Virus record (IMG/VR): IMGVR_UViG_3300032893_001230 | Span: 1 to 21,069 of that record | Direction: 5' to 3' (one strand) | Source of the DNA: a virus | Length of the DNA: 21,069 bases | The notes under the pieces: model-generated | Seen by the model: the letters and a program-made list of their open reading frames with translations, nothing else | The model's database searches: none | What the model was told of the DNA's origin: nothing | Translations under genes and position numbers: made by a program | Shown here: positions 1 through 18,760 of the stretch, piece by piece | Layout: each line of letters starts with the position of its first letter | Position numbering within the stretch: position 1 is the first letter of the stretch

Positions 1-923
1 CCTTCTTTATTGAAATTAAGATTGTATCTTTGCGCATATGCTTGAGCTTCTTTTGTCTTTTGTTCAATAGTATTAATTTTGAATTCTTTTTGCTCCATCC
101 AGTCAAGATGTTGGTTGCGTAGAGCATAACTTTTGTTGTCTTCCGATAGTTTTTCAAAGTCATCCCGATTCAACCAGTCAAGATGTTGGTAGCGTAGAGC
201 ATTACCTTTGTTATCTTCCGAAAGTTTTTCAAAATCATCCCGATTCATCCAGTCAAAATGTTGGTTGCATAGAGCATGACCTTTGTTATCTTCCGAGAGT
301 TTTTCAAAGTCATTCCGATTTATCCAGTCAAGATGTTGGTTGCGTAGAGCATTACATTGATTATTTTTCGAGAGTTTTTCAAAGTCATCCCGATTTATCC
401 AGTCAAGATGTTGGTAGCATAGAGCATTACCTTTGTTATTTTCCGAGAGTTTTTCAAAGTCATCCCGATTCATCCAGTCAAGATATTGGTTGCATAGAGC
501 ATAATCTTTGTTATATTCCGAGAGTTTTTCAAAGTTATCCCGATTCAACCAATCAAGATGTTGGTTGCGTAGAGCATGACCTTTGTTGTCTTCCGAGAGT
601 TTTTCAAAGTTATCCCGATTCAACCAATCAAGATGTTGGTTGTGTAGAGCATAATCTTTGTTATATTCCGATAGTTTTTCAAAATCATCCCGATTCATCC
701 AGTCAAAATGTTGGTTGCGTAGAGAACAACCTTTGTTGTCTTCCGATAGTTTTTCAAAGTCATCCCGATTCATCCAGTCAAAATGTTGGTAGCATAGAGC
801 ATGATCTTTGTTATTTTCCGAGAGTTTTTCAAAGTCATCCCGATTCATCCAATCAAGATGTTGGTTGCGTAGAGAACAACCTTTGTTGTCTTCCGAGAGT
901 TTTTCAAAGTCATCCCGATTCAT
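1..923 (-). CDS. 25-residue tandem-repeat protein (partial, runs off the left edge)
   Basis: Not a protein I recognise. The start ATG (923-921) follows a textbook AAGGAGG six bases upstream. The frame stays open to the window edge, so the C-terminus is missing. Residues 1-275 are eleven head-to-tail repeats of exactly 25 residues. Each has an almost fixed first half (NRDDFEKLSE), a middle NK, and an ending of the type QHLDW. Variation is confined mainly to repeat positions 12, 15, 16, 19, 20 and 23. After the repeats comes a charged, probably helical tail (MEQKEFKINTIEQKTK, then more). The repeat looks like two short amphipathic helices, so an alpha-solenoid or a binding scaffold is possible; this is inference. 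The gene is the last of a minus-strand run and carries structured leader copy A just upstream. No signal peptide or membrane segment is visible. Confidence 0.85.
   Translation of the reverse strand, partial: MNRDDFEKLSEDNKGCSLRNQHLDWMNRDDFEKLSENNKDHALCYQHFDWMNRDDFEKLSEDNKGCSLRNQHFDWMNRDDFEKLSEYNKDYALHNQHLDWLNRDNFEKLSEDNKGHALRNQHLDWLNRDNFEKLSEYNKDYALCNQYLDWMNRDDFEKLSENNKGNALCYQHLDWINRDDFEKLSKNNQCNALRNQHLDWINRNDFEKLSEDNKGHALCNQHFDWMNRDDFEKLSEDNKGNALRYQHLDWLNRDDFEKLSEDNKSYALRNQHLDWMEQKEFKINTIEQKTKEAQAYAQRYNLNFNKE
99..923 (-). repeat. Eleven 75-bp in-frame tandem repeats
   Basis: A unit of exactly 75 bp recurs at 99, 174, 249, 324, 399, 474, 549, 624, 699, 774 and 849 with no indels. Framework codons are nearly identical between copies, while a few codons take several alternative forms in mosaic combinations, as expected from unequal exchange or gene conversion plus local diversification. 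It is coding sequence and has no spacers, so it is not a CRISPR array. Confidence 0.95.
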
Positions 924-940
924 AATTTCCCTCCTTCTCA

Positions 941-1022
941 CTCTGCGTCTTCCGGAGTTGTGAACCGGCAACGCCTACATTAAGTACGCCGTCCCCTCAA
1001 CGGCGTGTCTGAATTATTTTTT
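941..1022 (-). promoter_or_regulatory. Structured 5' leader element, copy A
   Basis: GC-rich island in an AT-rich context, nearly identical to 2008-2090 (about six substitutions and one indel). On the minus-strand RNA it forms a 7-bp hairpin (ACGCCGT/ACGGCGT, loop TGAGGGG; 986-1006). A second hairpin follows, with outer GCGT/ACGC (945-948 with 971-974) and inner CCGG/CCGG (952-955 with 965-968). The element ends about 6 nt before the Shine-Dalgarno sequence of the repeat-protein gene. A further hairpin, CGCAAT/ATTGCG, lies upstream at 1025-1053. It is not a family I recognise. Its position suggests a cis-acting leader controlling translation or RNA stability. Confidence 0.7.
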
Positions 1023-1473: not shown

Positions 1474-1656
1474 TCATCTGAAAATTTGTTCTATTTCAGA
1501 TAACATGTAATATTCAGCAAGCTTTATTCCTATTTTTATTCTCTTTTTTTCCGCTTGCTTAATACGTCCTGCCAAAACGTCTTTTTTCATTTCGTTATAT
1601 ATCAATGCAATTTTTTTCATTATTGAGACTTGCTTTTTTGCATATTGTGTTATCAT
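1474..1656 (-). CDS. Small basic protein, 60 aa
   Basis: Unrecognised. The frame is open upstream to 1689, but the ATG at 1656 has a well-placed GAGGGAATTATT in front of it, so I start there (MITQYAKKQVSIMKKIALIY). It is Lys-rich and helical and has no Cys motif or membrane segment. It is the first coding sequence downstream of the hammerhead ribozyme cleavage site, so its mRNA would gain a new 5' end at about position 1772 if the ribozyme is active. Confidence 0.65.
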   Translation of the reverse strand: MITQYAKKQVSIMKKIALIYNEMKKDVLAGRIKQAEKKRIKIGIKLAEYYMLSEIEQIFR

Positions 1657-1680
1657 AATAATTCCCTCTCGTTTTTTCAA

Positions 1681-1738
1681 ATTGGACATTCAAGATCATT
1701 TTCTTCTTTAAAATTTTTAACTTGATTTTTTGTCCAAT
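1681..1738 (-). repeat. Inverted repeat between ribozyme and the 60-aa gene
   Basis: ATTGGACA (minus, 1738-1731) and TGTCCAAT (1688-1681) are perfect 8-bp arms, and TCAAG/CTTGA form a second paired segment inside them. On the minus transcript this gives a long bulged hairpin in the 5' region left after ribozyme cleavage, upstream of the RBS of the 60-aa gene. Its role is unknown. Confidence 0.5.
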
Positions 1739-1766
1739 GTGAATACACTGCATTCGCTTTTCGGCT

Positions 1767-1818
1767 ATAACCGACTGGATTTCTCCGGTTTCGTCGTATT
1801 ACGACTCATCAGGGTTAT
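1767..1818 (-). ncRNA. Hammerhead ribozyme, type I
   Basis: All conserved core elements are present in order on the minus strand. Stem I 5' arm is AUAACC (1818-1813), followed by CUGAUGA (1812-1806). Stem II is GUCGU-AAU-ACGAC (1805-1793), followed by GAAA (1792-1789). Stem III is ACCGGA-GAAA-UCCAGU (1789-1774) with a GNRA loop and a single C-A mismatch. The cleavage-site C is 1773, and the stem I 3' arm GGUUAU (1772-1767) is fully complementary to the 5' arm. Cleavage is predicted between 1773 and 1772. Stem I is the open helix, hence type I. The 5' arm begins on the base right after the UGA stop of the 58-aa gene, so the ribozyme would separate that gene's mRNA from the downstream genes. 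Hammerheads are known in phages; self-cleavage here is inferred from sequence. Confidence 0.92.
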
Positions 1819-1995
1819 TCAAAATTGTACACCTGCAAAAGCACAATAGATTTCAATATCTCTGGAAACTTCATCCTTCAAGATTGCCGCATCTTCAATT
1901 CTATTCAACGAAATCAGTTCTTTTTGTCTGAAATACAAGGAGGCAATTTGAAGCGCAGTCATTACCTGTGATACTGGCGATTTAGTATATTTCAT
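1819..1995 (-). CDS. Small protein, 58 aa, between a structured leader and a hammerhead
   Basis: Unrecognised. The ATG (1995-1993) follows GAAGGAAGGAATT, and structured leader copy B lies just upstream. The product begins MKYTKSPVSQVMTALQIASL and is mostly helical, with a hydrophobic patch at residues 12-23 too short and mixed for a convincing membrane span. The TGA stop (1821-1819) abuts stem I of the hammerhead, so the ribozyme forms this gene's 3' UTR. The combination of structured leader, small ORF and ribozyme looks deliberate, but no function can be assigned. Confidence 0.75.
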   Translation of the reverse strand: MKYTKSPVSQVMTALQIASLYFRQKELISLNRIEDAAILKDEVSRDIEIYCAFAGVQF

Positions 1996-2007: not shown

Positions 2008-2090
2008 CTCTGCGTCTTCCGGGGTTGCGAACCGGCAACGCTTACATTAAGACGCCGTCCCCTCAACGGCGTTTCAGGATTATTTTTTTT
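2008..2090 (-). promoter_or_regulatory. Structured 5' leader element, copy B
   Basis: Second copy of the element at 941-1022. Both hairpins are conserved: ACGCCGT/ACGGCGT (2052-2072) with an identical 7-nt loop, and GCGT/ACGC (2012-2015 with 2038-2041) enclosing CCGG/CCGG (2019-2022 with 2032-2035). One difference from copy A turns a possible G-U pair into G-C and so keeps pairing. As in copy A, an A-rich stretch and another, unrelated hairpin lie upstream (TTTCAATC/GATTGAAA, 2088-2115). The gene's Shine-Dalgarno starts right after the element. Confidence 0.7.
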
Positions 2091-2139: not shown

Positions 2140-2619
2140 CTATTCGATATAAGAAATACAAGCGTCCGCATATCTATCTGTAATGTCTATTCCTATTGCA
2201 GATAATTGTTTTTTGCTATGATAATCGGCATCATCTCCGAACATTTTTTTCAATTCTTCCCATTCTTGATCATCAATAAGATCATACATTTCAAATTCTT
2301 CGTTCCCAACAAAATTATTTTCAATGTCATAGATACAAATCACATCATTCTGGAAACGAAACTCCGTATTCCCTGCATAGGTTCTTTCGAATACTTTTTT
2401 TTCATCAAAATCAATAAAAATGTCAACATTCATGCCGGTACAAAAATTATCAAAAGCAAATCTTACGATATTTTCATCCGACAATTCTTTTTTTTCGCCT
2501 TGAAAATCAAACATTATTTCATCACCTTTTTCATCAAAAGCCTTATCAAAATAATGTGATTCTGATTCATATACCTCACGGTTTTCTTCGTCAATTTTCT
2601 TTAATAAATTAAAACTCAT
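2140..2619 (-). CDS. Strongly acidic protein, 159 aa
   Basis: Not recognised. The ATG follows AAAGGGGCTTAT. By hand count there are about 42 Asp/Glu against 17 Lys/Arg, with acidic residues spread along the whole chain (for example residues 104-130, which include NEEFEMYDLIDDQEWEELKK). There are no membrane segments; Trp is rare, and Cys are isolated. It is the first gene after a near-consensus promoter (2675-2703), which fits early or constitutive expression. Small, very acidic phage proteins are sometimes DNA mimics that block restriction or CRISPR enzymes. That is a possibility from charge and position only; a structural or regulatory role is equally open. Confidence 0.75.
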   Translation of the reverse strand: MSFNLLKKIDEENREVYESESHYFDKAFDEKGDEIMFDFQGEKKELSDENIVRFAFDNFCTGMNVDIFIDFDEKKVFERTYAGNTEFRFQNDVICIYDIENNFVGNEEFEMYDLIDDQEWEELKKMFGDDADYHSKKQLSAIGIDITDRYADACISYIE

Positions 2620-3635: not shown

Positions 3636-3654
3636 TAATTTGAAAGGAAATAAA

Positions 3655-3858
3655 ATGAATAGATTATCACTGGATAGAATAAAACGAATGTGCTACCGAA
3701 ATTATGTTATTGTTTTTTCATCTAAAGAATATAGTCTTAGTAGCTATCATCTTATTTCCAATCATATTGATTATGATGAATTGAAGGAACATTTTGAAAT
3801 AGATGGTTATGAAAACACAACAATAAGAAACATTATCAAATTAAAGGATATGAACTAA
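3655..3858 (+). CDS. Hypothetical protein, 67 aa
   Basis: First gene of the plus-strand cluster. The frame opens earlier, but the ATG at 3655 has AAAGGA six bases upstream and is the natural start. The product (MNRLSLDRIKRMCYRNYVIV and on) is mixed alpha/beta by eye, with basic residues near the N-terminus and no membrane or metal motif. Its TAA overlaps the ATG of the next gene (TAATG), so translation is probably coupled. I do not recognise a family. Confidence 0.65.
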   Translation: MNRLSLDRIKRMCYRNYVIVFSSKEYSLSSYHLISNHIDYDELKEHFEIDGYENTTIRNIIKLKDMN

Positions 3859-4133
3859 TGAGTATAAAACAAAAATTTTTTCAAGAAATAAATTCTAAAA
3901 TTGATTTTTGGAAACAAGGAGATGGCAGTATTGAAGAAAAACTTAGGGGGCTCGCTTTCTCAATCTTAGTTATAATCGATGGTGAAAGTTCAATAGGTCC
4001 ATTCGCGCTAAAACCTATTGATGAAAATGGAAATGAGGGCGAAAATATCGCAGGCGAATTACATCATGAGTTCGAGAATATTACCGATGAAGCAAAAAAA
4101 AAATTGAAGGAAATTGATGTCAAAAACTTTTGA
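3858..4133 (+). CDS. Conserved phage hypothetical protein, 91 aa
   Basis: Resembles a small conserved phage/prophage protein with a helical N-terminus followed by a KLRGLAFSILVIIDGES segment, a GPFALKP strand and a closing IAGELHHEF motif. I recall this pattern from phage genomes without a known function. It is acidic and cytosolic. It is coupled to the upstream gene by TAATG, and its end overlaps the start of the next gene by 17 nt. Three overlapping genes behind one promoter form a small operon running against the main direction. Confidence 0.7.
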   Translation: MSIKQKFFQEINSKIDFWKQGDGSIEEKLRGLAFSILVIIDGESSIGPFALKPIDENGNEGENIAGELHHEFENITDEAKKKLKEIDVKNF

Positions 4134-4350
4134 AGAAATAAAAACTTATTGTAATAAACTTCTAATTAGACAATTAAGTTTTCAAGAAACGGCATCAATA
4201 CATTTTGATAGAACAACATCAATTAGTAATAATTTTACAAATGTTTATCATTGTAAAAAACTTGATGACCATTGTTCATCCGCTCATTGTCCGCTTCTTG
4301 GTATTATCATGAAAGGAATTGAAGGTAGTTTGAATGATTGGATTAATTGA
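4117..4350 (+). CDS. Hypothetical protein, 77 aa
   Basis: The start is taken at ATG 4117, with GAAGGAAATTG before it; a TTG at 4114 is also in frame. Its 5' end lies inside the previous gene. It has a helical N-terminal half (FEEIKTYCNKLLIRQLSFQE) and a C-terminal part with Cys/His residues (YHCKK, DDHCSSAHCP) that could bind a metal, although the spacing does not match a zinc finger I know. The 3' end overlaps the start of the truncated gene at 4334. Function is unknown. Confidence 0.6.
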   Translation: MSKTFEEIKTYCNKLLIRQLSFQETASIHFDRTTSISNNFTNVYHCKKLDDHCSSAHCPLLGIIMKGIEGSLNDWIN

Positions 4351-4426
4351 TTTGGATTCAAAAATAGCAAATCTTGCATTAATGAAAATAAGATCATATT
4401 ACAGAAATAATGGAAAGATTATTTGA
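4334..4426 (+). pseudogene. N-terminal remnant of a phage radical-SAM-like protein
   Basis: The 30-residue reading frame starts MIGLIDLDSKIANLALMKI. This matches the beginning of a family of phage and bacterial radical-SAM-like proteins I know as GLIDVD...PNLALMKIS.YHK.KGD, which are several hundred residues long. Here it stops at TGA after NNGKII. The remainder is absent: a hairpin and a convergent gene follow at once. It therefore looks like the leftover 5' end of a deleted gene. It could be translated as a leaderless-context peptide by coupling to the upstream gene, but a function is unlikely. Confidence 0.6.
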
Positions 4427-4592
4427 AATGTTCCATTTCATAAGTTTTTGTATCTCTATAAATTTTACCTAAAGCAGATAATACATTAGAACTTTCACCA
4501 TTTTTACCTAATTTATACACTACATATCTATAACAATCATATATATCAGATAAATCGAAATGCTGTCCATCATCTGTTGAAATTAAATTCAT
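4419..4592 (-). CDS. Small protein, 57 aa
   Basis: Unrecognised. ATG 4592 is preceded by AAAGG at a suitable distance. The product begins MNLISTDDGQHFDLSDIYDC and has a regular alternation of charged and Tyr/Val residues (CYRYVVYKLGKNGESSNVL), suggesting a small folded domain with a strand pair. It is the last gene of the minus-strand lysis-side run and overlaps the 3' end of the plus-strand radical-SAM remnant by 8 bp. Confidence 0.6.
   Translation of the reverse strand: MNLISTDDGQHFDLSDIYDCYRYVVYKLGKNGESSNVLSALGKIYRDTKTYEMEHFK
4424..4440 (+). terminator. Weak terminator-like hairpin between convergent genes
   Basis: TGAAATG-TTC-CATTTCA is a perfect 7-bp stem with a 3-nt loop, followed on the plus strand by TAAG and five T. 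The stem is AT-rich and the T-run is short, so efficiency is doubtful. It sits at the end of the plus-strand cluster and also encodes the C-terminus of the minus-strand 57-aa gene. Confidence 0.4.
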
Positions 4593-4677
4593 ATTTTTAC
4601 CTTTCTATACTTAATTCAATTTCTACAATATCAATTATTTTATTATTTTTTGAATCAATTATTTTATTTATTTCTTT

Positions 4678-5199
4678 TTATAATTTCCATGCAAAGCCGA
4701 ATTCCCGGTAAGAATCATATGAATAAATTCCGAGGATAACTGCTATTATGGCAATTATAATAAGACATATACACAATACTGGTACTGCGACCCATAAAGA
4801 TTTCTTTAGAATGCTATTTTGTATTTCTAATTTTGTCAAGTTCGTTTGTAATGTCTGTGTTGAGGATTTCAAGTCTTGAAATGAGTTTGTCATTGTTGAT
4901 AATTGTTCCTTGAGACTTTCCACTAATTTTTGAGATTCGATCAATTGCTGTTTGAAGTTGTTCGATATATTTTGCATTTGAAGTAATTGACTCGTTAAGT
5001 CTTGCAATTGTATCTTTTGAATCGCTGAATTGCTTTTCAATTGTTTTATAATCATCATTGATTCGCTGATTTGTGATTTTAAGTTTATCAACGTTGACAC
5101 TGGCAATTTTATATATTGAAAATCCTGTGAGGCATCCGCCCAAAGCGAAACAGATAACGCCAATAATAATGTGACAAAAAACACTTTTAATTTTACCAT
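4678..5199 (-). CDS. Coiled-coil protein with signal peptide and C-terminal membrane anchor (outer frame of nested pair)
   Basis: The 173-aa product has a clear Sec signal (VKLKVFFVTLLLALSVSLWADAS, likely cut after ADA). A long Gln/Ser/Leu-rich coiled coil follows at about residues 35-130, then a strongly hydrophobic span at about 135-160 (VAVPVLCICLIIIAIIAVIL) and a short tail ending FAWKL. It would be periplasmic and tethered to the inner membrane by its C-terminus. There is no lipobox Cys. Another complete ORF (4814-5203) is embedded in it in a different frame, and the two starts are 4 nt apart. It lies near the holin and peptidase, so a spanin-like or other lysis role is the leading guess. 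Classical u-spanins also have an N-terminal export signal and a C-terminal span but are lipoproteins, which this is not. Confidence 0.75.
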   Translation of the reverse strand: MVKLKVFFVTLLLALSVSLWADASQDFQYIKLPVSTLINLKSQISESMMIIKQLKSNSAIQKIQLQDLTSQLLQMQNISNNFKQQLIESQKLVESLKEQLSTMTNSFQDLKSSTQTLQTNLTKLEIQNSILKKSLWVAVPVLCICLIIIAIIAVILGIYSYDSYREFGFAWKL

Positions 5200-5203
5200 T
5201 CAA
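4814..5203 (-). CDS. Coiled-coil membrane protein nested in another gene (i-spanin-like)
   Basis: Starts at TTG 5203, exactly 6 nt after AGGAG and thus better placed than the ATG of the overlapping gene at 5199. The 129-aa product has a basic N-terminus, one hydrophobic segment (HIIIGVICFALGGCLTGFSI, residues about 11-30), then an uninterrupted charged coiled coil to the end. This is the layout of an inner-membrane spanin (Rz-like): N-in anchor and periplasmic helix. A possible lipobox, LGGC, lies inside the hydrophobic stretch, so a lipoprotein cannot be excluded. All but the first 4 nt are inside the 173-aa gene. Both frames encode credible signal/anchor segments and coiled coils, which argues that neither is a chance ORF. 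Confidence 0.7.
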   Translation of the reverse strand: MNGKIKSVFCHIIIGVICFALGGCLTGFSIYKIASVNVDKLKITNQRINDDYKTIEKQFSDSKDTIARLNESITSNAKYIEQLQTAIDRISKISGKSQGTIINNDKLISRLEILNTDITNELDKIRNTK

Positions 5204-6964: not shown

Positions 6965-7462
6965 TTATTTAAGAGTTCCAATCCATTTTGTATTATGATT
7001 CATCGGGTCAACCGCTAATTTTTGATTAACCAACCATTTGTTACTATAATAAAATCCAGTATCATCCTTATTCCAAATCTCTTTAGTCTCAACCAAATAC
7101 GTCCCTGTGTGCAAATGTGCTGCAATTATTCCAGTTCTACCACCTGTATTTCCAGATTCAGCAATTATATCACCGGCATTAACTAATTGCCCTTTCTGAA
7201 TTATTATACAAGACAAATGTCCTGCCAGATAAAATAATCGCTCGTCTTGTGTATCTTGCAATACAAGACAATTTCCATATCCTGTAATTCCGGTTATAAC
7301 AGAGATAACAAGACAATCTCTATCTGATATTAAATCAGTTCCAGAAGGACAATTTATGTCACATCCCTCATGTGCAGTATACAAACCATCAGGAACATTA
7401 GTATAATCTTCATTGAATTTTCCGATTATTTTGAAATTTGTCATTATTTTGGGAATTATCAT
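6965..7462 (-). CDS. M23 family metallopeptidase (candidate endolysin)
   Basis: A LytM-type zinc endopeptidase, predicted to cut peptide cross-links in peptidoglycan. The HxxxD motif is HEGCD (H31, D35), the HxH motif is HLH (H116, H118), and the catalytic-loop His is in YLAGHL (H82); GQLVNAGDIIAESGNTG is typical of the family. At 165 residues it is a bare catalytic domain without signal peptide, so release would need the holin. The true start is ATG 7462, preceded by GGAGG and overlapping the HNH stop as ATGA; the longer frame from TTG 7477 is unlikely. It contains five Cys (C34, C38, C50, C65, C85), unusual for a domain with no need of disulfides. It could instead be a virion-associated hydrolase. 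Confidence 0.85.
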   Translation of the reverse strand: MIIPKIMTNFKIIGKFNEDYTNVPDGLYTAHEGCDINCPSGTDLISDRDCLVISVITGITGYGNCLVLQDTQDERLFYLAGHLSCIIIQKGQLVNAGDIIAESGNTGGRTGIIAAHLHTGTYLVETKEIWNKDDTGFYYSNKWLVNQKLAVDPMNHNTKWIGTLK

Positions 7463-7992
7463 GATATATGCCTCCAAGTTTTATATTTTAAAATAAATTG
7501 TATTGTTGTTTCAGAAACATTGAACATATCCGCCATATATTTTTGAGTATAATTATTTTTATTTTTTCTTATATAAATAATATTTTCTTCTTTTAATTTA
7601 GCTCTTGAATTATGTTCACCTTTTCTATCAATTAATCCTATTCTAAAGGCGTGTTTATTATTTTCTGATTGAGTACAAAATTCAAGATTTTCAATTTTAT
7701 TATTATAAGTATTTCCATCGATATGATTAATAGTCAAATTAGAATTTCCATAAAAAGCGGAGGCTATTAATCTATGAGATAATTTATCATAACGTTTATT
7801 ATTTTTAGATAATTGAATCATAAGATAACCTTTTTTATGTTTAAATTGTTTTAATATTTTGTTATTTTTATTTTTTATTTTACCTAAATTAGATGCTTGA
7901 TACAAACCCTCAAATCCGGGAATGTCTTTCCATATTTCTTTATCCTGATTAAAAACTCCCGTAATAGGAAATTCAATTTTGGGTTTTATCAT
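7459..7992 (-). CDS. Free-standing HNH homing endonuclease (NUMOD4 type)
   Basis: Residues about 19-60 form a NUMOD4 domain (EIWKDIPGFEGLYQASNLGK). Residues about 75-118 form an HNH_3-type nuclease (HRLIASAF, then NHIDGNTYNNKIENLEFCTQ). The C-terminus is a NUMOD1-like helix-turn-helix (RAKLKEENIIYIRKN ... FNVSETTIQFIL). Such proteins cut an allele lacking the insertion and spread themselves. The first 18 residues (MIKPKIEFPITGVFNQDK) are not part of the nuclease; they match the first residues of the following M23 peptidase in protein and DNA. The gene thus seems to have landed at the peptidase start and kept its initiation region. GGGAGTG precedes the ATG, and both ends overlap neighbours as ATGA. 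Confidence 0.9.
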   Translation of the reverse strand: MIKPKIEFPITGVFNQDKEIWKDIPGFEGLYQASNLGKIKNKNNKILKQFKHKKGYLMIQLSKNNKRYDKLSHRLIASAFYGNSNLTINHIDGNTYNNKIENLEFCTQSENNKHAFRIGLIDRKGEHNSRAKLKEENIIYIRKNKNNYTQKYMADMFNVSETTIQFILKYKTWRHIS

Positions 7993-16712: not shown

Positions 16713-18338
16713 TTAATAAGATTTTTCATTATTTCCACCCGATTGTTGTGTATTAGCTTTTTTTATACCATCAATTGTGTAATCTTTTACTTTACTAATA
16801 TCTTCCTTTGCAATATTATTAGTCTGATTGAAAATTATCCGAGCTTCTTTTGCACTAATACCTTTTTCCTTCATAATTTGTTCAATTATTTTATGGTCAT
16901 TTTTTGTTTTTTCTAACAAATTTTCCAGTTCTTTTTGACTTTGTTTTGCTTCGTAGTTTTCTAAAGGCGCCATTGATTTTTCTGTAGTTTTAGGTATATT
17001 TACAAAACTTTCTTTTAATGATCCGCCATATCCTCCTAATCGTTGATAATAATCTTGCCAATCTTTCAAGAAATTTTTCGGATCCAAAGTAGATGTGACT
17101 AATGTTCCTATAAGATCGCCAAAAGAAAGAAATGATTGTATCACGGTATTTATAGCAGCGGATATAACAGCTCCAAATGTTTCAAGCGATGCTTTTATTA
17201 AAAGTATTTTTTTTCCGAGATCGCCTAATTTATCCATATATGCAGTTATATCATCGCTATTCCATAATGCCTTTAATAATCCGAAAACATCTTTTAAAGT
17301 TACCATTAGATCGTCAAATTGTTTTTTAAATTTTGGAAAAGCTGCCATAAAATCACCCATAAGTGAACGACCTTCGCCAGAAAAATAATGGGCCATATCA
17401 TCCAATATTATCAATAATGCAACACATGCCATTGAAAACAATCCAATAGGAGATAGCAAAAAAGCCGAATTTAATAATGCAAATCCAGCAACAAGTCTTA
17501 CAAGAGCATTCTTCCATCCTATAGTATTCTTTACAATTGTATCAATCATATGCCCCGCATTGCCTATTGCTGTTATGAACTTAATAACCCATTCTACAAT
17601 ATTCTGAAGTATTTTAAGAAAGCCTGTTTTATTAATAGACATCCATGATGTTAATAATGCCATAAATTTAATAATAGCCGGGGCGAATGCAGTAACAATC
17701 TCGGCTTTGATGTAATCGAATCCCTTCCCCATCATCTTAATAGATAAATCAGCTCTTGCCATCATATCTATTTGCCCCGGACTTAATACATAAGCATTCT
17801 TTTTCATCCTGTCAAATTGGTCATTTGTAAGATCAAGTACCTGAATCATTTCGGCATTAACTCCAAGCATTCCCAAAACATTTTTTTTCATACCTTGAGA
17901 AAGACCTTGAGTTTTTTCTCTTAATTTATCCAATACTGCAAATGGGTCTTCATTTGGATTTATTCCAAGTAATTGATACCCTGAAATATTGCCTTGACCA
18001 AGTTTTATTTTTTCTTGATTATCAACAATAGCTTTAACAGAATTTGTTACCGAATCCGCTGATATATTTGCTTGAGTCGCTACTGATTGCCACATTTGTA
18101 ATTGTCCTGTGTCTGCTCCAGTCTCTGCTCTGAATTGTTTTAATGCTACGGCAGTACGCAAAGATTCTTCAGTCATTTGTTTTATTGTAGAAGTAATTTT
18201 TGATATAGTTCCTATAACCATATCGGCACCGGCTTTAATATCGGTTAGACTTTTTATGAATGATTTTGCTTTTGAATCATCAGCAATAATTCCGATTCTT
18301 GCAAACAATTTACTTATTTCGATAGAATTACCCTCCAT
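16713..18338 (-). CDS. Tail tape measure protein, 541 aa
   Basis: Position between tail assembly chaperone and baseplate genes, length, and composition identify the tape measure, which fixes tail length and is ejected into the host. It has an N-terminal helical domain (AIVDNQEKIKLGQ, then DLTNDQFDRMKKNAYVLSPG), two hydrophobic regions (AFAPAIIKFMALLTSWM; LVAGFALLNSAFLLSPIGLF followed by MACVALLIILDD) and an amphipathic C-terminal half. It is short for the family, predicting a short tail. The start is odd: ATG 18338 directly abuts AAAGG, while a GGAGGG just after it is ideally spaced for a non-standard ATC codon. The GIY-YIG gene overlaps it by 25 nt, so its insertion may have changed the original start. 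Confidence 0.9.
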   Translation of the reverse strand: MEGNSIEISKLFARIGIIADDSKAKSFIKSLTDIKAGADMVIGTISKITSTIKQMTEESLRTAVALKQFRAETGADTGQLQMWQSVATQANISADSVTNSVKAIVDNQEKIKLGQGNISGYQLLGINPNEDPFAVLDKLREKTQGLSQGMKKNVLGMLGVNAEMIQVLDLTNDQFDRMKKNAYVLSPGQIDMMARADLSIKMMGKGFDYIKAEIVTAFAPAIIKFMALLTSWMSINKTGFLKILQNIVEWVIKFITAIGNAGHMIDTIVKNTIGWKNALVRLVAGFALLNSAFLLSPIGLFSMACVALLIILDDMAHYFSGEGRSLMGDFMAAFPKFKKQFDDLMVTLKDVFGLLKALWNSDDITAYMDKLGDLGKKILLIKASLETFGAVISAAINTVIQSFLSFGDLIGTLVTSTLDPKNFLKDWQDYYQRLGGYGGSLKESFVNIPKTTEKSMAPLENYEAKQSQKELENLLEKTKNDHKIIEQIMKEKGISAKEARIIFNQTNNIAKEDISKVKDYTIDGIKKANTQQSGGNNEKSY

Positions 18339-18760
18339 CCTTTGTATTCATTTATTCCTTGATATATGCCATATCTTAAAAATGATTGAATTTTTTGATC
18401 TTTACAAAATTGTCTCAAATTACCGACAACATCATGTCTTATTCCGCATGGAGAATAAAATATATAATGTTCCTTATTCGGATTATTGCTAAATGTATCT
18501 CCGCCTGTTCCTCCAACATGGATATTATATCCTTTTGGAGAAAAAGTATTATAATAATTAATCCAATATATTTCTAATTGATCCATTTCTTTTTTAGAAT
18601 TACATTGATTAATAATTTCTTTTTGAAAATTTTCTTTTCCATATTTTTTAATAGCACGTTTTATTAAAACTCCACTACCAAGATATTTAGGATTATCATG
18701 AGAATCTTGCCCTATATAAATTTTACCATTTATCAAATTTGTTATTTTATATACTTGCAA
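18314..18760 (-). CDS. Free-standing GIY-YIG homing endonuclease
   Basis: Residues 1-85 form the GIY-YIG nuclease: YKITNLINGKIYIGQ (motif with KIYIG replacing the usual YIG order), LIKRAIKKYGKENF, the LEIYWINYYNTF glutamate motif and GYNIHVGGTGGD. The C-terminal part (YSPCGIRHDVVGNLRQFCKD, then INEYKGW) is the small DNA-binding type that often ends such proteins. Start TTG 18760 has GAGGAG seven bases upstream, located in the last codons of the chaperone fusion. It is a selfish insertion between chaperone and tape measure and has no tail function. Its last eight codons overlap the tape-measure start. Confidence 0.9.
   Translation of the reverse strand: MQVYKITNLINGKIYIGQDSHDNPKYLGSGVLIKRAIKKYGKENFQKEIINQCNSKKEMDQLEIYWINYYNTFSPKGYNIHVGGTGGDTFSNNPNKEHYIFYSPCGIRHDVVGNLRQFCKDQKIQSFLRYGIYQGINEYKGWRVILSK

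Follow-up and report, generated by a model that had tools for sequence, protein, structure and literature searches.

An element that is almost certainly a genuine type I hammerhead ribozyme begins directly after the stop codon of a 58-aa phage gene in the window, the whole 21,069-nt stretch analysed here (IMG/VR record IMGVR_UViG_3300032893_001230). Placement at the stop codon of the preceding frame (stop-docking) is the majority arrangement among about 260 hammerheads compared, and the window case is ordinary for its kind. According to the preferred reading, to which we give a probability of roughly 0.6, the element acts as an intercistronic separator that cuts the RNA just past a finished reading frame. 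The features discussed below are listed in Table 1.

Table 1. Features around the hammerhead element, in window coordinates.
Feature	Position	Strand	Basis or remark
Type I hammerhead ribozyme	1767..1818	-	Motif anatomy and two covariance-model matches
UGA stop codon of the 58-aa frame	1819..1821	-	Final A is the 5' A flanking stem I
Predicted cleavage site, C (1773) / G (1772)	1772..1773	-	Assigned from established hammerhead chemistry
Upstream 58-aa frame (MKYTKSPV...AGVQF)	1822..1995	-	Shine-Dalgarno-like GAAGGAAGGAA ahead of ATG
Downstream 60-aa frame (MITQYAKKQ...)	1477..1656	-	Shine-Dalgarno-like GAGAGGG
Predicted competing hairpin UCGGU-UAUA-GCCGA	1760..1773	-	Pairs over the cleavage site; folding prediction
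Structured leader of the 58-aa gene, twister-P5-like	2019..2076	-	12 bits, E 7.6, sub-threshold

Anatomy of the element and model scores

Read along the minus strand, the hammerhead has the order AUAACC-CUGAUGA-GUCGUAAUACGAC-GAA-ACCGGAGAAAUCCAGU-C-GGUUAU (1818-1767). Stem I forms 6 of 6 pairs between its 5' strand AUAACC (1818-1813) and its 3' strand GGUUAU (1772-1767), stem II forms 5 of 5 (GUCGU-AAU-ACGAC), and stem III, capped by a GAAA loop, forms 5 of 6 (ACCGGA-GAAA-UCCAGU), the third pair being a C.A mismatch. All bases of the consensus core (CUGANGA, GAAA, and UH at the cleavage site) are present as CUGAUGA, GAAA, and UC, with C at position 1773 as H17, and the pairs adjoining the core are all standard. 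Since the open stem is stem I, the hammerhead is of type I. The spacing between UGA (1821-1819) and stem I equals 0 nt; the A flanking stem I on its 3' side is position 1766, and the A.A flank and a 5-nt UAAUA loop II, the two parts between which a tertiary contact would form, are both of the kind found in most phage examples. Thus, the complete type I hammerhead that the original prediction placed at 1767-1818 is borne out in its coordinates, core, and stems by the sequence and by the model scores given below, as is, by the sequence, its zero spacing between UGA and the first pairing base. The cut that it placed between 1773 and 1772 agrees with the hammerhead consensus as a predicted site.

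Regarding the Rfam type I model (RF00163), which the original prediction had proposed as a check, the element matches at 27.2 bits (E 1.3e-4 for all 4227 families over 451 nt, and E 1.5e-6 for RF00163 alone over the whole window). This score, however, is below the gathering score of 34, which is a curation threshold and not a structural feature, so that a default Rfam scan stays silent and misses the element. Among ten loci rich in phage hammerheads only 5 matches exceed the Rfam cut-off, which is thus ill-suited to phage hammerheads, many of which score below it. For this reason a dedicated covariance model was built from 59 other viral hammerheads with the window sequence left out of the training set. 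It reports 55.0 bits (E 4.2e-13) for the element and no second match in the window. Plain folding of the 52 nt gives a z-score of −1.4, which is not significant; a weak folding z-score is expected for a motif as small as the hammerhead.

Two features of this particular copy could slow it, namely the C.A mismatch and the competing hairpin predicted over the cut site. The third pair of stem III is standard in 57 of the 57 model sequences that have letters at that place, and this is the only statement taken from the training alignment, which covaries strongly but consists of sequences pre-selected for paired stems. The census below permitted one mismatch. As for the hairpin, transcription of the next ~14 nt lowers the predicted pairing of stem I from 0.95 to about 0.1, and an equally low value is predicted for 6.6% of 227 other hammerheads, by a program that ignores tertiary contacts.

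These features raise the question of decay, i.e., of a formerly active hammerhead that the mismatch and the hairpin have rendered slow or dead and that is retained by recent descent only. In favor of decay, an otherwise identical stem III in the viral contig L053 has U where the window element has C and is thus perfectly paired, and relatives of the phage do not conserve a hammerhead at the same place. However, the core bases and all core-adjacent pairs are intact, the score against a model of other phage hammerheads reaches the 55 bits reported above, and stem I gains a head start of several nucleotides over the hairpin in co-transcriptional folding. Moreover, hammerheads generally tolerate much variation in stem III. 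Decay is therefore rather unlikely, and a functional separator remains the preferred reading.

Placement of phage ribozymes at stop codons

The original prediction also described the element as fused to a stop codon, and this description extends to a property of the class. A pattern scan of viral contigs yielded an initial sample of 151 distinct type I hammerheads, on the 5' side of which the stop codons of upstream frames crowd. Three samples were then compared with one fixed script: viral hammerheads with GTC/GAC in stem II (S1), viral hammerheads with GCC/GGC in stem II from an independent scan (S2), and hammerheads from prokaryote genomes (S3). Non-redundant upstream frames of at least 60 aa were counted. 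The docking zone comprises the 17 nt from −12 to +4 relative to the core C (negative values lie before it), and a stop counts as docked if it ends there; the zone was chosen after S1 had been seen, and S2 and S3 serve as its tests.

The stop falls into the docking zone for 68 of 90 hammerheads in S1, 68 of 108 in S2, and 10 of 16 in S3; for random positions drawn from these contigs and having a frame end nearby, the share is 6.9%. Upstream frames of at least 150 aa behave similarly (20/26 and 13/18 docked in S1 and S2, respectively). Ten long upstream frames were checked, and all ten match phage families; the long frames include thymidylate synthase, primase-helicase, DNA ligase, and an anti-restriction protein. 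On the antisense strand, which was used as a control, docking is found in 2 of 21 cases. Cleavage sites also tend to avoid same-strand frames of at least 100 aa, lying inside them in 10/138 (S1) and 16/123 (S2) cases versus 45% and 41% of random positions. Some viral contigs (L053, L057, L086, L099, L104, and L075) carry four to nine successive hammerheads, gene after gene, and in L104 four of them lie within 1.6 kb.

As for the sequence shared by stop and ribozyme, an A on both flanks of stem I is present in 98/138 (S1), 87/123 (S2), and 18/25 (S3) hammerheads. Since the A.A flanks occur with or without a stop codon, the flanking A is probably structural. The hammerhead sequence itself holds stop triplets, UAA ahead of the core and UGA within it, which can end any frame that enters, and these may add to the peaks at offsets 0 and +4. 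In 15/90 (S1) and 12/108 (S2) cases the UGA inside the CUGAUGA core is the stop itself. However, most docked stops precede the hammerhead core, and two unrelated ribozyme folds dock as well, which indicates that the rule is not an accident of the hammerhead's own triplets. For pistol (RF02679) the stop offsets are −1, −5, −6, and −75, i.e., 3 of 4 docked in a small sample; for twister-P5 (RF02684) they are −1, 0, −3, −5, −6 (the last from a 46-aa frame), −17, and +10, i.e., most of 7 docked. These examples (L450-L459) come from one viral record and Clostridia genomes, and mostly lie 0-6 nt after the stop.

Genome compaction could produce the same placement without any function of the position, if short gaps simply force hammerheads onto stops, and the usual layout of stop, hammerhead, 13-45 nt, and start is in line with it. 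However, docking persists where there is room. In gaps with at least 30 possible placements, some of which may conceal short uncalled genes, 30 of 40 hammerheads are at the stop versus 7.9 expected under the first gene-calling rule, and under the second the values are 30/44 versus 7.3 (S1) and 32/63 versus 10.4 (S2). Only 2 (S1) and 10 (S2) hammerheads in such gaps are found at the downstream end. In the window, about 110 nt remain free between the 3' end of the hammerhead and the start of the 60-aa frame (1656), although a spacer longer than usual for phage hammerheads counts against the separator reading. Tight packing alone is thus insufficient to explain placement at the stop, and compaction as the whole explanation is improbable in comparison with the separator.

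The window element belongs to an already known class. Prophage hammerheads between genes cleave in vitro and in E. coli (PMC3088659), and Perreault et al. 2011 hypothesized that phage hammerheads divide long transcripts into gene-length mRNAs (PMC3088659). The clustering of phage ribozymes at genes has likewise been published, as has the idea that they may cleave polycistronic RNA (PMC3088659; PMC6155905; PMC10085705; PMC4604425). The window element shares with the phage and prophage type I hammerheads (RF00163; PMC3088659) the core, the three stems, the open stem I, and the location between small genes on the coding strand, and differs from RF00163 phage hammerheads in its sub-cut-off score and the C.A in stem III. 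The phage hammerhead HHphage (haloviruses HF1/HF2; PMC3088659) likewise lies at the border of a gene, and a 5' end has been mapped near its cut; it has a variant core and lies 13 nt before a start codon, whereas the window element has a canonical core directly after a stop. Pistol and twister-P5 of prophages resemble the window element in position and not in fold. Theta ribozymes (HDV-like) of gut phages (PMC10879173) are another self-cleaving class in phage transcripts; the paper connects them with tRNA-based recoding, and its text yielded nothing that relates them to the stop codon of the gene ahead. The text of PMC3088659 is likewise silent on docking at stops, and no report of the rule was found in the open literature searched; priority is not claimed.

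Genomic surroundings, relatives, and the leader

The contig is a myophage fragment, in which a DUF3383-type tail sheath, a baseplate wedge protein, and an M23 peptidase were identified. Its late structural genes run leftward between about 21 and 4.4 kb. Three small rightward frames follow at 3640-4350, and the hammerhead sits in another leftward group, made up of small unassigned frames, that begins near 3.55 kb and reaches the end of the contig. Promoter-like sites near 3.6 kb are no commoner than in shuffled sequences. The 58-aa frame has no family match and no relatives in viral contigs or annotated phages; nor did the viral contigs searched yield a relative of the 101-aa or the endolysin protein. 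By DNA similarity, the hammerhead region gives only scattered short matches to annotated phages.

Several other features of the window were recorded. An inverted repeat ATTGGACA...TGTCCAAT (1680-1740, minus strand) lies 3' of the hammerhead, inside a short stop-to-stop frame GYSRKANAVYSHWTKNQVKNFKEENDLECPI that is protein-like in look and for which no convincing relative was found. A 323-aa frame at 3-971 (minus strand) contains about a dozen near-identical 24-residue repeats (NRDDFEKLSEDNKGHALRNQHLDW), and its low-level Pfam matches are spurious in appearance. At 4678-5203 (minus strand) two nested frames of 173 and 129 aa in different phases, the smaller with a lipobox-like ALGGC, resemble by eye an Rz/Rz1-type spanin pair. 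Frames similar by eye to homing endonucleases are located at 7459-7992 (HNH/NUMOD-like) and 18314-18760 (GIY-YIG-like), both on the minus strand; the first residues of the former are similar to those that begin the neighboring M23 peptidase frame.

The search with the sheath family returned many related phages, and no sheath relatives were found in genome contigs. Over 50 sheath-related viral records RF00163 reports no hammerhead, and the phage-hammerhead model reports 1, in L208 (G002), the closest ribozyme-bearing relative, with a sheath 66% identical to that of the window. This hammerhead (2220-2284, plus strand) starts at the UAA of a 127-aa frame. The following frame ends with UAA at 2531, and 1 nt further on starts a twister-P5 (2533-2585, plus strand; 56.8 bits, above the threshold), so that one small gene is flanked by a stop-docked hammerhead and a stop-docked twister-P5. 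The ribozyme pair stands near a run of six tRNA genes, and at 4308-4787 L208 has a nested frame pair similar to the one in the window. The L208 genes beside these ribozymes are not homologous to the window genes and, relative to the structural genes, are encoded on the opposite strand; the two phages thus share the docking habit and not the locus. As for conservation in related phages, which the original prediction had named as one criterion, the answer is mixed: a hammerhead at the same place is absent from the 50 records, while a stop-docked one exists elsewhere in L208.

The leader of the 58-aa gene suggests a different role for the hammerhead, in which a twister-like element and the hammerhead together free a short 58-aa mRNA, whose 2',3'-cyclic phosphate and 5'-OH ends could be joined into a circle. 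The leader retains UAAUG and CCGGU..CAA..CCCGG and aligns to the true twister of L208 better than 1999 of 2000 shuffles, and in L208 a single gene separates hammerhead from twister. However, its score of 12 bits is far from the cut-off of 37.6, it has CAAC instead of CAAG (the catalytic G replaced by C), the P2 stem is not formed, and alignment to the twister-P5 family consensus is at chance level (572/2000 shuffles). In addition, circular products of prophage hammerheads have been sought and none were seen (PMC3088659). Such excision is accordingly very unlikely compared with simple separation.

A twister-P5 ribozyme in the leader was not accepted on the basis of its score and the missing P2 and CAAG, nor was a circular RNA, to which the weak twister match is the sole pointer. 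A pseudoknot between the GAGGGG loop of the leader and CCCC is also conceivable. No twister-P5 was found in 50 hammerhead-bearing records, and a twister pattern scan of viral contigs gave 4 matches, with an Rfam match at none of the 4 loci.

Finally, a mere chance resemblance to a hammerhead, for which the score under the Rfam gathering cut-off could be cited, is hardly credible given the E-values from two models and the fact that the single match of the phage model among the 50 related records is stop-docked too.

Proposed role in the phage transcript

Acting as a separator, the ribozyme would cut its own RNA between 1773 and 1772 soon after transcription, as expected from established hammerhead chemistry. 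Hammerhead cleavage leaves a 2',3'-cyclic phosphate and a 5'-OH. The 58-aa message would thus retain its full frame, followed by the folded body of the ribozyme, a 46-nt 3' end carrying the cyclic phosphate, and the downstream message would begin with 5'-OH-GGUUAU. The original prediction had the ribozyme cutting a polycistronic early mRNA between the 58-aa and 60-aa genes: the anatomy would indeed separate these frames, but "early" is unsupported, the contig carrying late structural genes and the hammerhead lying in the leftward group of small unassigned frames.

A docked stop and the ribozyme have nucleotides in common, a UGA or UAA providing the flanking A of stem I. With docking within about 12 nt, a ribosome terminating at UGA would cover the stem I strand and the CUGA box. 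Because these parts would lie in the ribosome footprint, translation of the upstream frame and cleavage would be mutually exclusive, and the cut would either follow the last ribosome or hit untranslated RNA. The 17-nt docking zone matches in size the ribosome's reach beyond a stop. Such gating of cleavage by translation is put forward tentatively, and the present evidence fits gating and simple trimming alike. A broader proposal is held with similar reserve: phage ribozymes of at least three unrelated folds may have been selected onto the preceding stop, where ribosome termination and ribozyme folding would compete and thereby tie cleavage to the end of translation, dividing polycistronic phage mRNA after completed frames.

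The placement rule bears on the role of bacterial and phage hammerheads, a question that dates from their discovery. A strict rule narrows the possible functions to those exerted where a reading frame ends, as opposed to anywhere between genes. Docking also offers a cheap filter for real ribozymes that score below the Rfam cut-off, the window case included. Translation would be the natural controller of stop-docked ribozymes; if gating is wrong, the rule still means that phages trim their messages directly after the stop codon.
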